Assembly (NCBI GenBank): GCA_022447525.1
Contig: JAKVBA010000039.1
Span: 1-41,281, forward strand
Reading direction: 5' to 3'
From: Gammaproteobacteria bacterium
GTDB lineage: Bacteria; Pseudomonadota; Gammaproteobacteria; Arenicellales; Arenicellaceae
Length of the DNA stretch: 41,281 bases
Shown here in pieces: positions 2,483 through 30,219 of the stretch. A model generated the notes under the pieces. The model was not told the DNA's origin. It did no database searches and saw only the letters and a list, made by a program, of their open reading frames with translations. The translations under genes and the position numbers were made by a program. Each line of letters starts with the position of its first letter. Within the stretch, counting starts at the first letter, position 1.

Positions 2483-4846
2483 CTAAACGAAGCCAAAAAG
2501 CCGGATTAAACGATCCTTTACTCGTTGGAGAAAAGATCGTCTTGCTAGTGTCAAGGCCTGGCGTAACCTCTGATTCTCCAAAGTGACTTCATCGAACTCT
2601 TTCAATTGATTGCTCTGATGTATTAGAGAGTTAGTGGCCTGATTAAGCCGACTTTTGAGCATATCAATATCAGCCTGAGTTTCATGGCCCTTGTTGCCAA
2701 GCCGAACAATTGATTCGGCTTGACTGTCGACTAGGTCCAATAAACTCTTCAGTGCTTGGTTATAGCTAGGATCAAATATCAATTCTAATTCGATCTGGAT
2801 CTCAGATATCTGCTCTAACTGCTGCTGATTACTCAAATCTATAAGAAAGAAGGGATCTTCATTGGTGGCAATAAAGAAGATTTCCGAGTCTGTTGTTGAT
2901 AACTCGATGTTTTGCATTTGTGAAAGATCAGCAAGTTGTTTTGCGTCCCTAATTTGCCAAATTGTTTTTTCCTCTTTATCGAGCAAGGCAATGCCGGCTA
3001 TTTTAAACAATCCTGGACGTTGCATAGGATCAATTCTAAGAATTGATTTCTCGGTATCAACGTAGCTAAAGTCGTGTTTCAAAGTTTGCAAATTGCTCTT
3101 TATCGGCCAATCAATATTGAGCGTGCGAGCATTATCGAAAATATTTTGCTGATCTGCCCAAGTTATCTGACATACATTGTGTGATATTTTTTCGTTTATC
3201 TCACCAGTAAATCTCCCGTGCAGTGAGTGGAGTATCGATCCGGATTTGAATCGATCGCTAATCTCTCTCTGAACCGTTTCCTCTAGATGTACAAAATCGA
3301 GTAAATTTTCATCTGAACTAACTTCATTGAGGTAATGACGTATAAAAGCGTCAATAGTTTGAAAACCCCAGGTATCCCCAAAGTCGGCTAGTAGAGATTT
3401 GTTCTCAAAAGCGAACCAAAATAGGGCTCTAAAAAGTATAAATTCTGGGCTAATTTCTTTTTGTATCAACCATTCTGGGTCTATGGCTCGGTAGCAGTCT
3501 AGATCTAGAAAATTGTTGTTTTCACAAAGTATATTAAAGGGCAGAAGGTCGTAAGTATCACTTGAGAGTATTTTCTTATTGATCGGATCGGCTCTACTCT
3601 GAAGCCACCTAAAATACGTCTGTATCAGCTGACTCAGAGATTTAGCGTTTTTAGCCAACACTGCTTCCAGCCAAGCATCTATTAAGATCCGCCCCTCAGC
3701 AAAATTTTGCTCTGCAATATCTTGTTTTAGAAGCTCTGGTTGGCTCATGCGTTTTTTGACCGTCGCTCGCATGATGGGAGTTTTGACAACTTTCAATTCG
3801 CTACGATCCTTACTCGTAATCGTGCGCCATTTTGGCAGTCTGTTGGTACCGGGGAAATGGCAGAAATCCTTGCCATACAATCTTTCGGCTGCGCTATTGT
3901 CAAGATCACAAAATGCTACTATCCGAGACGATTTGTGAAATAGATTTTTGTTGGCGACTAATAATGATTTGTAGAGCAGATATTCATTTATTTTTGGGTT
4001 GTTAATAGACCCTATACGATAAAAATGATTCAACGCCGTTGGGCTATTATCAAGATAGTCTTGCGATAATAAGTTGGGCAGACCGTGATGGGCAGAAAAG
4101 CAGCCACCCATTAATATTCCCCCGAAATCTAATTTTGATAAACAACACGAAAATTCGTCGGCAGAAAACAAATTGGAATGCTCATCAGCGTATAGGTCTT
4201 TATAAGGCGTCAAAGGGTCCAGATTGTCTCTATCTGTATTCAACCATTTCGACATTCGATCACGGTTTTTTATATTTACGACAAGGACGCCATTTGAGCT
4301 AAGTGAGTCTCGCAGTTTACCCAAAAGTGACTCGGTGCTCGCTGTGTCAAGTTCTAAGTCTTCAACGCGTCCTAAATAGATGAAATCATATTGCTTTTTT
4401 GGGTAGCTGAGCTTTTCTGGAGTGGCAGTATGGAAGTGGATATTACGACTTTCAGGAAAGCGCTGTCTACTCAGTTTAGTTCTTAAAGGATCAACTTTTA
4501 TTGAATCAACATGTGAAAACAATGTTGATAGGAATTCACTAGTACCGCCAAAGTCTTGAGATAAATCCAACGCAGTCCGTTGTGATTTTAACTTTGTAAA
4601 ATCACATACCCTCAAGACATTATGTATAGACCCGTCAAACTCATAGATGAGTTCGGGTGTATCCAATAACTGCTCCATTCTAGTAGAGAAAAGTCGCAAG
4701 TCAGCGTCGGATTCCAATAGTCGAGGAACAGCGATATTCAAATAACTGCTTAGGGGGGTGTACGCACGTTCAGAGAGGATATACCGCAATATTCCATTCT
4801 CACGAGGATGGTCCGGGTTGCACTCGGCTAACGCAAAATTTGTCAT
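2483..4846 (-). CDS. Large SAM-methyltransferase-like protein with C-terminal coiled coil
   Basis: A 787-aa protein. Residues ~88-195 read as a class I methyltransferase Rossmann fold: a motif I-like strand and loop TALDLSQDFGGTSEFLS (91-107), a motif II acidic end DSIKVDP, a motif IV-like YDFIYLGRVEDL, and a later strand GVLVVNIKNRD. Motif I is degenerate (DLSQDFGG in place of D-x-G-x-G), so activity is uncertain. The central ~450 residues match no domain I recognise. The last ~80 residues are rich in heptads (LLDLVDSQAESIV ... LENQRLRQALTLARRSFLQRV), suggesting a coiled coil that tethers or oligomerises it. There is no signal peptide. Similar MT-plus-coiled-coil proteins occur in surface polysaccharide loci, but no such cluster surrounds this one. 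Confidence 0.6.
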   Translation of the reverse strand: MTNFALAECNPDHPRENGILRYILSERAYTPLSSYLNIAVPRLLESDADLRLFSTRMEQLLDTPELIYEFDGSIHNVLRVCDFTKLKSQRTALDLSQDFGGTSEFLSTLFSHVDSIKVDPLRTKLSRQRFPESRNIHFHTATPEKLSYPKKQYDFIYLGRVEDLELDTASTESLLGKLRDSLSSNGVLVVNIKNRDRMSKWLNTDRDNLDPLTPYKDLYADEHSNLFSADEFSCCLSKLDFGGILMGGCFSAHHGLPNLLSQDYLDNSPTALNHFYRIGSINNPKINEYLLYKSLLVANKNLFHKSSRIVAFCDLDNSAAERLYGKDFCHFPGTNRLPKWRTITSKDRSELKVVKTPIMRATVKKRMSQPELLKQDIAEQNFAEGRILIDAWLEAVLAKNAKSLSQLIQTYFRWLQSRADPINKKILSSDTYDLLPFNILCENNNFLDLDCYRAIDPEWLIQKEISPEFILFRALFWFAFENKSLLADFGDTWGFQTIDAFIRHYLNEVSSDENLLDFVHLEETVQREISDRFKSGSILHSLHGRFTGEINEKISHNVCQITWADQQNIFDNARTLNIDWPIKSNLQTLKHDFSYVDTEKSILRIDPMQRPGLFKIAGIALLDKEEKTIWQIRDAKQLADLSQMQNIELSTTDSEIFFIATNEDPFFLIDLSNQQQLEQISEIQIELELIFDPSYNQALKSLLDLVDSQAESIVRLGNKGHETQADIDMLKSRLNQATNSLIHQSNQLKEFDEVTLENQRLRQALTLARRSFLQRVKDRLIRLFGFV

Positions 4847-27642: not shown

Positions 27643-27942
27643 ATGGTTGTTAACGAAAAAATGCAAAAAATACTTCACGAACTCAGCTTGGTTGAAAGAA
27701 ATGAGATCAGTAGATGTATGAATTTAGCGGCTAACGACCTTGGGAATGAATTAATCTGCCTTTATTACTCTGATACAACAAATGAAGTGAGATCTTTAAT
27801 AAAAGACTTTTTGACCTCGGCAGGAGTAGTTTGGTTAAGAAAACTCCTTACTAATGACACTTCTGCGATAGTAAGTAGTCGAGGCGAACTGGCTGGCTTG
27901 GACGATTATCTAGTGCTATTAGCCGCCAATGATAAGGCTTAA
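27643..27942 (+). CDS. Hypothetical protein, 99 aa
   Basis: A 99-aa protein not recognised. It has no signal peptide or membrane segment, and looks mostly alpha-helical and acidic (MQKILHELSLVERNEISRCMNLAANDLGNELICLYY, then VRSLIKDFLTSAGVVWLRKLL). Two cysteines are present (Cys25 and Cys39). A good ribosome-binding site, GGGGA, lies six bases before the ATG, and a strong rho-independent terminator begins about 60 bases after the stop. These make it a genuine single-gene unit. A 281-bp gap separates it from the upstream lipoprotein gene. No function can be proposed. Confidence 0.65.
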   Translation: MVVNEKMQKILHELSLVERNEISRCMNLAANDLGNELICLYYSDTTNEVRSLIKDFLTSAGVVWLRKLLTNDTSAIVSSRGELAGLDDYLVLLAANDKA

Positions 27943-28192: not shown

Positions 28193-28468
28193 TTAGCTGA
28201 TTGAGTAAGTAATCGCGCCGTCTTTAGCAATTTCACAAACTGATTTGATAGTTTCACCCTCTGTAACTACTTTTAGTTTGATTTGGTATACACCGCGAGT
28301 TAGCTTGATCTTATTTGCCTTAGCACGCTTATAACCTTCGTGAGCAAGTTCTGCTTCTGCTTTGCAAAGAGTTACTGCATGTCCTGATGATTTGGCTGGT
28401 GTGGCTGCCTGCGCAGTGCCCGCGGCTAAGAACGAAAGAGCGATGATCGAAGAAGATAATTTTTTCAT
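28193..28468 (-). CDS. Small secreted protein with two cysteines (91 aa)
   Basis: A 91-aa protein with a clear Sec signal peptide, MKKLSSSIIALSFLAAGTAQA, cleaved after AQA (residue 21). The mature ~70-residue part holds two cysteines (Cys35 and Cys78) that could form a disulphide in the periplasm, and a beta-rich middle (RGVYQIKLKVVTEGETIKSVCEI). I do not recognise the family. The start has GAGG seven bases upstream. A terminator follows, so it is a single-gene unit. Two copies of the CAGAAT-N4-RTTCTG motif lie upstream, one within the likely promoter, suggesting control by the neighbouring TetR protein. Confidence 0.72.
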   Translation of the reverse strand: MKKLSSSIIALSFLAAGTAQAATPAKSSGHAVTLCKAEAELAHEGYKRAKANKIKLTRGVYQIKLKVVTEGETIKSVCEIAKDGAITYSIS

Positions 28469-28529: not shown

Positions 28530-28535
28530 GTTATA
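28530..28535 (-). promoter_or_regulatory. Candidate -10 box (TATAAC) of the small secreted gene
   Basis: Reading on the minus strand, TATAAC lies about 62 bases before the start codon. The 16-bp operator-like repeat occupies the 17-bp space immediately upstream, where the -10/-35 spacer would be. The -35 is poor (CATAAC-like), so the promoter may be weak or need activation. Confidence 0.4.
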
Positions 28536-28536
28536 T

Positions 28537-28552
28537 CAGAATGAATGTTCTG
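28537..28552. promoter_or_regulatory. Candidate TetR operator 1 (CAGAATGAATGTTCTG)
   Basis: Inverted repeat CAGAA-N6-TTCTG, one base upstream of the candidate -10 of the 91-aa secreted protein gene. It shares the CAGAAT-N4-RTTCTG form with two other sites in this 0.8-kb region. Binding here would block RNA polymerase. Confidence 0.65.
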
Positions 28553-28624
28553 TTATGATTAAAAAAAACAGCGCGTAAGCGCCAGCGACTTTGTCATGTG
28601 GAAAGGATAATGCATGATTGTGAA

Positions 28625-28640
28625 CAGAATGTCTATTCTG
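28625..28640. promoter_or_regulatory. Candidate TetR operator 2 (CAGAATGTCTATTCTG)
   Basis: Second copy of the CAGAA-N6-TTCTG inverted repeat, 88 bp from copy 1 centre to centre, in the gap between tetR and the secreted protein gene. The distance is close to eight helical turns, which would suit looping or cooperative binding. Confidence 0.6.
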
Positions 28641-28719
28641 AAAAGAGAAAATTGTTTAATTTAGATAAATTTTTGCAAACATTCTCTACTCTAAGATCTT
28701 TGTAGAGTTTAGTTGATAT

Positions 28720-29304
28720 TCAATGCTGAGCAGGCCTCAACAGATTTAAGGCACACCTAACGTAGTCTCGACGTTCCTGCTCGCTGCAGCGTTGCTTGGT
28801 CATAGTGATTAGAGCTCTTTGGATTCCCATTACATAAGTCACTAGATCTTCCACTGGCATGCGCCTAATAACCCCTTTGTTGATACCGTTTCTGATAAGT
28901 AATCGATAAGCTGTCTTGGTGTCCTCAAAAATAGAAGACACGATACTTCTGACTTTTTCGTCATCGGCACCGCGTTCTATTGCCGCTTGATGCGCGAAGC
29001 AGCCATTTCGATCACCATCTGAAAGCGCCTGTAGAACCAAATCAAAATGTTCAGAAAGACTATGATCCCCTGATTGACCGCAATAGGGCTTTATGAAGTA
29101 ATCGTGCAAGCGTTGGTGGTAGCGTTTCAACGTTGCGTAGTAAAGCTGATCTTTATCCTTAAAGGCTTGGTATAAACCATATCTGGCTACGCCTGACTCC
29201 TTTACTACATCTGCCATCGAACACGCCTTATAGCCCTTACTCCAAAACAGTTCAAGGGCGGCATCAAGTACTTCTTCAGGTCTGAATTCTCGTGATCTAG
29301 GCAT
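28720..29304 (-). CDS. TetR/AcrR-family transcriptional regulator
   Basis: A 194-aa protein with the N-terminal TetR DNA-binding domain: EEVLDAALELFWSKGYKACSMADVVKESGVARYGLYQAFKDKDQLYYATLKRY. The recognition helix is around VARYGLYQAF. The C-terminal ligand-binding half is helical, with the FAHQAAIERGADDEKVRSIV stretch of the family. It is third in a minus-strand row after cfa and an alpha/beta hydrolase (33-bp gap). An inverted repeat CAGAATACCTGTTCTG lies seven bases before its ATG, and two more copies precede the next gene. Autoregulation and control of the secreted protein gene are therefore likely. The ligand may be a lipid or fatty-acid-like compound given its neighbours, but this is inference. 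Confidence 0.9.
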   Translation of the reverse strand: MPRSREFRPEEVLDAALELFWSKGYKACSMADVVKESGVARYGLYQAFKDKDQLYYATLKRYHQRLHDYFIKPYCGQSGDHSLSEHFDLVLQALSDGDRNGCFAHQAAIERGADDEKVRSIVSSIFEDTKTAYRLLIRNGINKGVIRRMPVEDLVTYVMGIQRALITMTKQRCSEQERRDYVRCALNLLRPAQH

Positions 29305-29310
29305 ATGAAG

Positions 29311-29326
29311 CAGAATACCTGTTCTG
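29311..29326. promoter_or_regulatory. Candidate TetR operator 3 (CAGAATACCTGTTCTG)
   Basis: Third copy of CAGAA-N6-TTCTG, inside the 33-bp gap between the hydrolase stop and the tetR ATG, seven bases from the start codon. It occupies the place of the ribosome-binding site and suggests feedback control of tetR. Confidence 0.65.
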
Positions 29327-29337
29327 ATTCAAAAAAG

Positions 29338-30219
29338 TCAAGACTTGTAATGCTTTGAGTTTAGCCACGTTGAGATAGCTTGATGACATATCTCTGGTTT
29401 TTCAAGTGGAAGAAGATGATAAGTATTTGGTAAAACTAAGCCTGTAAAATTCTCCTCGAGACCCTCATTGTTGGAATGAAATACTTTGTTGGAGTAAAGG
29501 CTTGAGTGTTCGGCCTTGAGGAAGAGACAAGGCAGATTACACTTTGCAAGGTATTTCCAAATGAATTCGACTCGGCGAAAAATATGCGCTTCCCACTCTC
29601 TAGCAAAGACCAGCTCATAATCCCCGTTTTCGCGGGCGCGCAATCCATATGCCGCATAATCTCGCATGGCTTCTGAAGTAAATCGTTTGTAAGTAGGATG
29701 TTGTGAATACCGTTCTAGAAATGATTGATGATCGGACCAATATTTTTGTCTCTGCGCTGTTCTAGCAATCATGGGGATCAATTTGAATACTAACTTTTCA
29801 GGCAGGTGTCGGTACACCAAGTCTAACCAAGGGCTGGTTAGTGAGGCTGGTTCGATCAATACCAATTTACTGAATAAATCCGGCCTTTTGAAAGCAGCAA
29901 TTAGAGTTATGTGGGCGCCGAAAGAGTGCCCCATACCAATTACCGAAGATCTATGCTTAGACTCAATTGTCTTTATAAGATCGTCGGCAAAATCAGAAAA
30001 GCCAAAATTTGATAGTGGTATTTGATCGGCCAGCGTCGCTCTGCAGTCTACCGCCTCGATCGAATATGTATCCGCGAACTGTCTCAAATAGCTCTTGTAA
30101 ACACCAACTGGAATACCGTTTGCTCCACTAAAGTGAATAGAGGAGGTGGGACGGTTATTAGTAGCGTCAATCTTGAAGCCGGTCAGGGCGTTGATGTCAA
30201 TGTGCGCTTCTTTCATCAT
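29338..30219 (-). CDS. Alpha/beta hydrolase
   Basis: A 293-aa alpha/beta-hydrolase-fold protein. The nucleophile elbow is GMGHSFGAH (Ser99). The oxyanion-hole region is around HFSGANGIP (29-37), and a late DHQSF-type cap helix precedes the C-terminal region. The catalytic histidine is probably in PNTYHLLPLEKPE near residue 270. No signal peptide is present. It lies between cfa (37-bp gap) and tetR (33-bp gap) on the same strand and is likely co-transcribed. The neighbours suggest an ester or lipid substrate, but it could as well be a haloalkane- or lactone-type hydrolase; the substrate cannot be read. Confidence 0.85.
   Translation of the reverse strand: MMKEAHIDINALTGFKIDATNNRPTSSIHFSGANGIPVGVYKSYLRQFADTYSIEAVDCRATLADQIPLSNFGFSDFADDLIKTIESKHRSSVIGMGHSFGAHITLIAAFKRPDLFSKLVLIEPASLTSPWLDLVYRHLPEKLVFKLIPMIARTAQRQKYWSDHQSFLERYSQHPTYKRFTSEAMRDYAAYGLRARENGDYELVFAREWEAHIFRRVEFIWKYLAKCNLPCLFLKAEHSSLYSNKVFHSNNEGLEENFTGLVLPNTYHLLPLEKPEICHQAISTWLNSKHYKS

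Follow-up and report, generated by a model that had tools for sequence, protein, structure and literature searches.

For both the core and the layout of the putative operators described below there are precedents in the TetR family, namely RolR and AcuR. In Rhodobacter sphaeroides, AcuR is a TetR-family autoregulator whose operator overlaps the promoter and whose mRNA starts at the AUG, with no Shine-Dalgarno site; it targets acuI and dddL, its operon includes a COG0604 oxidoreductase, and its operator is given as TAATAGAC-N6-GTCTATTA (PMC3017554). RolR of Corynebacterium glutamicum occupies 29 bp with two dimers, and one of its two repeats reads TGAAC-N4-GTTCA (quoted in PMC9210681).

The locus reported here is similar to that of AcuR (PMC3017554) in its probable autoregulating TetR-family logic with a putative operator over the promoter, the leaderless mRNA being in our case predicted from promoter geometry. 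A COG0604 oxidoreductase is part of the AcuR operon, and among the possible targets in our case is an MDR gene away from the locus. The operator words, however, are different (the AcuR word above, CAGAAY-N4-RTTCTG here), and our protein falls far short of the NCBIfam AcuR model NF051457 (19.1 bits, cut-off 247). With RolR, in a comparison made by operator alone, the GAAC-N4-GTTC core and its spacing are the same, while the second repeat, the pair of dimers over 29 bp and the outer bases of the quoted RolR site set the two apart (PMC9210681). The initial annotation of this DNA could name no TetR operator that the motif matches, a statement that has to be amended, since the core resembles the RolR repeat quoted in that source. 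A literature search by title returned nothing on an Arenicella TetR of this kind.

The window, that is, the whole stretch of DNA that was analysed (41,281 nucleotides), is contig C156 of a genome of 3.62 Mb in 222 contigs (G000). The features of interest are the following:

28193-28468, minus strand: gene of the small secreted protein (SSP), 91 aa, with a signal-peptide-like start
28530-28535, minus strand: candidate SSP -10 TATAAC, extended as TG-A-TATAAC
28537-28552, minus strand: O2, putative operator of the SSP gene, its last TG and one further base preceding the -10
28569-28584, minus strand: terminator-like hairpin and then T8, between tetR and SSP and downstream of O3
28625-28640, minus strand: O3, operator-like site in the tetR-SSP gap, in the tetR 3' region
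28720-29304, minus strand: tetR gene, 194 aa, with TetR_N and TetR_C_13 domain matches
29311-29326, minus strand: O1, putative operator of tetR, CAGAACAGGTATTCTG on the minus strand, containing the candidate -10
29312-29317, minus strand: candidate tetR -10 TATTCT, inside the operator, from the promoter scan and the last N4 base T
29336-29341, minus strand: candidate tetR -35 TTGACT, 18 nt from TATTCT, from the promoter scan

As the initial annotation had claimed, CAGAAT-N4-RTTCTG is matched exactly at 28537, 28625 and 29311, and all three matches lie in non-coding gaps. The window has no other exact match, and none of the three is inside any listed ORF of at least 70 aa (the ORFs flanking the gaps are SSP, tetR and a hydrolase gene at 29338-30219, all on the minus strand). 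For the exact pattern, a first-order Markov model on one strand expects 0.009 occurrences in the window, 0.0002 in 800 bp and 0.81 in 3.62 Mb. When up to two mismatches are allowed, the window scan returns 10 rows (5 places on both strands) against 8.55 rows expected from shuffles, and only the three named places among the five are exact. In the whole genome the same pattern has five exact places: the three window sites, C10:3224 in the gap between convergent genes and C148:23341 upstream of an MDR-type oxidoreductase gene. Widening the pattern to CAGAAY-N4-RTTCTG gives seven, against one for the reversed control, and the two places added lie before an acyl-CoA dehydrogenase gene (C150) and within an ORF (C212). 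Places with one mismatch are about as frequent as those of the reversed pattern (28 against 24 in this genome, 18 against 20 in its nearest relative, G002), which means that the exact sites alone are informative; the one-mismatch genome scan was therefore dropped as a regulon finder. Random hits, which would have counted against the initial annotation, are few: the 18 genomes of the genus hold 34 exact CAGAAY-N4-RTTCTG places against nine reversed ones, with the tetR-SSP locus accounting for 19 of the 34. The word does occur in the form first described, but along transcription its commonest form is CAGAAC-N4-ATTCTG (C in 15 and A in 17 of these 19 sites).

The protein between the sites scores 52.1 bits for TetR_N (PF00440; cut-off 24), which corresponds to the N-terminal helix-turn-helix of the TetR family, and 29.3 bits for TetR_C_13 (cut-off 27). 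Its AlphaFold2 model (mean pLDDT 85.9) has nine helices, in an all-helical fold with a C-terminal ligand/dimer domain, and its best Foldseek matches are TetR-family structures (best E 8e-6). By sequence, the top match among solved structures is CifR from Pseudomonas aeruginosa (PDB 6nsn; residues 3-177, E 2e-9), a likeness, compared at the level of the protein, no greater than TetR-family members show in general. The Gly-Cys pair G101 C102 is invariant in a ten-sequence alignment, and solely by analogy with NemR we take it to be a possible sensing site.

Orthologues of this TetR were sought in 61 genomes, its own included, at a threshold of E below 1e-70, and were found in eight others, all of the same Arenicella-type genus (61-72% identity). 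Every one of these eight loci has one exact CAGAAY-N4-RTTCTG before tetR, 5-6 nt from the ATG, and one before SSP, which is still recognisable in G007, where the contig ends within it. Conservation thus holds for the counterparts of 29311 and 28537, but not for the site at 28625, which is present in this genome alone. In six of the eight (G003, G005, G007, G008, G010 and G017) the genome has no exact site besides the flanking pair; a further one is present in G015, and a further two in G001. Orthologues of TetR and of SSP (E below 1e-14 for the latter) co-occur in the same 9 of the 18 genus genomes. Genes of both sides are found on one contig in G012 and G013, with neither tetR nor SSP between them, and the stretch from the cyclopropane-fatty-acid synthase (CFA) gene to the neighbour matching window 27643-27942 is without both in G014 and G016, where, as in all these drafts (78-99% complete), absences are not proof. 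That neighbour is a 99-aa ORF with no Pfam or NCBIfam match, seen near the locus in four of the eight tetR-bearing congeners and also in G002, G012, G013, G014 and G016, where no tetR was found.

In a gap-free alignment on the operator, positions in the arms agree in 8.7-8.9 of 9 sequences on average and those in the flanks in 5.6-6.0. As a pattern search was used to find the sites, the agreement of the arms is in part a given, and the figure for the flanks means that the gaps are not conserved throughout. Moreover, since strong conservation is confined to one genus, the loci share ancestry. Even so, the prospect that the sites are chance palindromes or copies of a repeated element is practically negligible: the background level of the one-mismatch matches would suit it, but three exact sites stand against 0.009 expected in the window, the N4 spacers vary between copies, and exact sites occupy the same places in all eight orthologous loci.

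The synteny also bears on whether the sites might instead control the adjacent alpha/beta hydrolase and CFA genes, which read towards tetR. Both adjoin it in the window, and G001 has the two of them, and G017 the hydrolase, near tetR. However, neither was found around tetR in G003, G005, G007, G008, G010 and G015, where the sites persist, G014 has both genes at the same place without tetR, and in the window neither gene is preceded by an exact site. These genes are not a constant part of the tetR locus and were rejected as targets on synteny, which leaves such control very unlikely.

The core of the word raises the question of LexA, as LexA recognises GAAC-N4-GTTC in several groups of bacteria and most of the papers listed for this core are, by title, about LexA, SOS or recA. 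In the gammaproteobacteria the LexA box is CTGT-N8-ACAG. At the lexA gene of this genome (200 bp before and 60 bp into the frame) the best match to CAGAAY-N4-RTTCTG has three mismatches, whereas two places match CTGT-N8-ACAG with one mismatch. In the six congeners whose exact sites are limited to the pair around tetR, no recA or lexA can have an exact one. The box of the present sites was not found before the lexA of this genome, and the LexA regulon reading, rejected on the organism's own lexA promoter, is in our view highly improbable.

The three sites are, by contrast with these alternatives, very probably TetR binding sites, as shown by their retention upstream of tetR and SSP in marine relatives. 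The initial annotation had proposed as much from the clustering of the sites, and their rarity outside the locus and their conservation in eight of eight orthologous loci support it. We put the probability that they are operators of the adjacent TetR-family repressor, controlling tetR and SSP, at about 0.85; what the sequences show is that the sites exist, that orthologous loci have them too, how they are placed with respect to promoter-like elements, and that tetR and SSP occur together. A TetR dimer would then bind CAGAAY-N4-RTTCTG at both promoters.

At tetR, O1 lies 6 nt upstream of the ATG. The tetR operator includes TATTCT in nine of nine genomes and TATATT in seven, with the ATG 5-6 nt further on, and TTGACW is found 9 nt upstream of it in eight of nine (TTGCAT at 10 nt in G001). 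The N4 spacer ends in T in 9/9 tetR operators and in 3/10 SSP operators, which matches expectation if the tetR spacer doubles as a -10. A consensus promoter scan lists the tetR promoter as one of four promoter-like sites in the region, against 3.0 in shuffles, and at this chance level its -35 and -10 calls are weak alone. With a start 6-8 nt past such a -10, at or a few nucleotides from the ATG, the tetR mRNA would probably have no leader, or hardly any. As the operator holds the -10 and ends 5-6 nt from the ATG, a bound repressor would hide the -10, and in this way TetR may set its own low level.

At SSP, the minus strand reads A-TATAAC directly after O2. In eight of nine genomes the operator ends in TG, followed by one base and then WATAAC, so that the whole reads TGnWATAAC, an extended -10; G001 has CTAACA there. 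This -10 is unlisted by the consensus promoter scan, in which a TTGACA-like hexamer and a T at the last position are required, and no TTGACA-like consensus was seen upstream of the SSP operator in the aligned loci. Here the operator would sit just upstream of the extended -10 and supply its TG, and bound repressor would block the promoter. A ligand that frees the repressor would be expected to switch on SSP together with tetR.

Between the two genes, the hairpin followed by T8 has at least seven T at that place in nine of nine genomes, and the terminator scan that found it gives one hit in the region against 1.1 in shuffles, which is weak alone. Upstream of the SSP operator, a run of 7-9 T is present in all nine genomes (window 28553-28580; L057-L064). 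In several of them (e.g. G001, G007 and G008) the run makes up the loop of a short hairpin with a stem that varies in sequence from genome to genome, which would be odd for a terminator. As SSP comes with a site and a -10 of its own, we do not favour a single operon of tetR and SSP; the terminator scan, however, is no better than shuffles on this point.

The SSP itself has two cysteines that are kept in all nine aligned sequences, a paralogue in G015 included. Its model (mean pLDDT 81.5) has one helix and four strands, in an arrangement resembling that of cystatins: a structural second look gave Z scores of 10.1 and 8.5 to designed proteins and 7.1 to chicken cystatin, values which may reflect no more than a common arrangement, and Foldseek returned nothing at E <= 0.001 for the model. 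Pfam searches with eight proteins gave matches below the cut-offs alone (PepSY_2 at E 0.006 for the window protein, others scattered), and for the window protein NCBIfam gave none and a PDB profile search none at E <= 10. Beyond the genus there is one weak match (G398, E 2.5e-4) among 369 genomes of the class searched, which include the genus in part. Weaker relatives occur in other genus genomes, the best in G009 (E 3.8e-9; L114).

More distant TetR relatives in the order were scanned, and a related palindrome lies at most 40 nt from the ATG in 4 of 19: CAGAATGATCGTTCTG in G011, TGGAACGATCGTTCTA in G446, GAGAATGATTATTCTC in G001:C47 and TTGAACGAATGCTCAA in G015:C7. The other 15 have no such palindrome near the ATG, and four of these (L222, L223, L226 and L236) were read out of frame in the scan and are no test; L230, also among the 15, has TTGAACATTTATTCAA only at -111. 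The G011 protein is a divergent TetR (L109 2442-3032; 19% identity) with an exact palindrome of the same pattern at 3046-3061, 13 nt before the ATG. The gene in G015:C7 (L238) is another TetR with three TTGAAY-N4-RYTCAA palindromes before the ATG, which make a sister word that differs in its outer bases.

Outside the locus, the genus genomes hold 15 exact sites. Six of them are promoter-placed or beside a tetR gene, i.e. before two MDR and two acyl-CoA dehydrogenase genes, the SSP paralogue of G015 and the divergent tetR of G011. The other nine lie within an ORF, over an ORF end (G016:C445) or in a convergent-gene gap (G000:C10), and their number equals the nine reversed-pattern controls. The third exact site of G015 (L099 2975-2990) is about 75 nt before the likely ATG of the SSP paralogue, which has the same two cysteines.

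The sites upstream of the MDR and acyl-CoA dehydrogenase genes are those of G000 and its nearest relative, G002, whose two proteins are 80% and 91% identical to their counterparts, respectively; the solved structure closest to the MDR protein is 3iup, annotated as a putative NADPH:quinone oxidoreductase (E 2.6e-119). Both MDR promoters read TG-A-TATAGA. At the acyl-CoA dehydrogenase genes the sequences are TGG-TTATACT and TGG-CTATACT, where TATACT is shifted by one base. The arms fit the pattern in G000 as well as in G002 although their spacers are not the same, an argument that the site has a function in both. In the other genus genomes the genome-wide scan gave no exact site at these promoters in the sequence covered. 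A scan of the 160 bp before the gene took in 17 MDR and 15 acyl-CoA dehydrogenase loci, some of which are cut short or partial (L125 and L131; L139, L143, L145 and L146), the stretch shown there not being the promoter; with G000 and G002 set aside, the remaining 13 MDR and 9 acyl-CoA dehydrogenase loci come no closer to the pattern than two mismatches (L126). The initial annotation spoke of a local TetR regulon. The local sites are borne out, but given the exact sites at the MDR and acyl-CoA dehydrogenase promoters here, the regulon may be wider than the locus in this genome.

In G002 no TetR orthologue was detected, nor a CFA match at the locus. Its contigs C25 and C26 end at the tetR-SSP-hydrolase-CFA place, and the orthologue may thus be unassembled. 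On C25, beyond the conserved neighbour and where the tetR-SSP block would be expected, there is a fragment (L199 642-1871) that we take to be RHS-like. Promoter sites in a genome without a detected TetR orthologue suggest that another regulator may read the word; the word would then be read by two regulators, the local TetR at tetR and SSP, and another, common to G000 and G002, at the MDR and acyl-CoA dehydrogenase promoters. G002 indeed has both enzyme promoter sites, and nine other TetR pairs (55-89% identity) are common to the two genomes. Against this, an exact site is found beside none of 13 other TetR_N matches in G000 and none of 10 in G002 (300 bp before to 150 bp into the frame), and the contig ends may account for the missing orthologue. 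We regard a second regulator as a serious possibility, if on balance a doubtful one. The tetR of G002 may be unassembled or lost, or a second regulator may read the word.

Returning to a single TetR as the reader of all these sites, we tentatively suggest, at somewhat less than even odds, that a two-gene circuit has spread its operator to two metabolic promoters, those of the quinone-oxidoreductase-like MDR gene and of an acyl-CoA dehydrogenase pair, in the lineage of G000 and G002. That circuit would consist of a near-leaderless tetR with the -10 in its operator and a cystatin-like SSP that is almost confined to the genus. If true, this would be a single-target TetR turning into a small regulon, with the secreted protein as the original target. 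The sites also lend themselves to a study of how promoters acquire operators anew among closely related genomes.

The operator evidence is unusually clean for computational work, while the system itself is one of ordinary local gene control. With it, an uncharacterised group of TetR proteins in Arenicella-type bacteria obtains a clearly defined operator word, and the layout of the promoter predicts that the repressor mRNA is leaderless. It also gives a handle on a secreted protein family for which our searches gave neither a Pfam or NCBIfam model above cut-off nor, by sequence, a solved relative.
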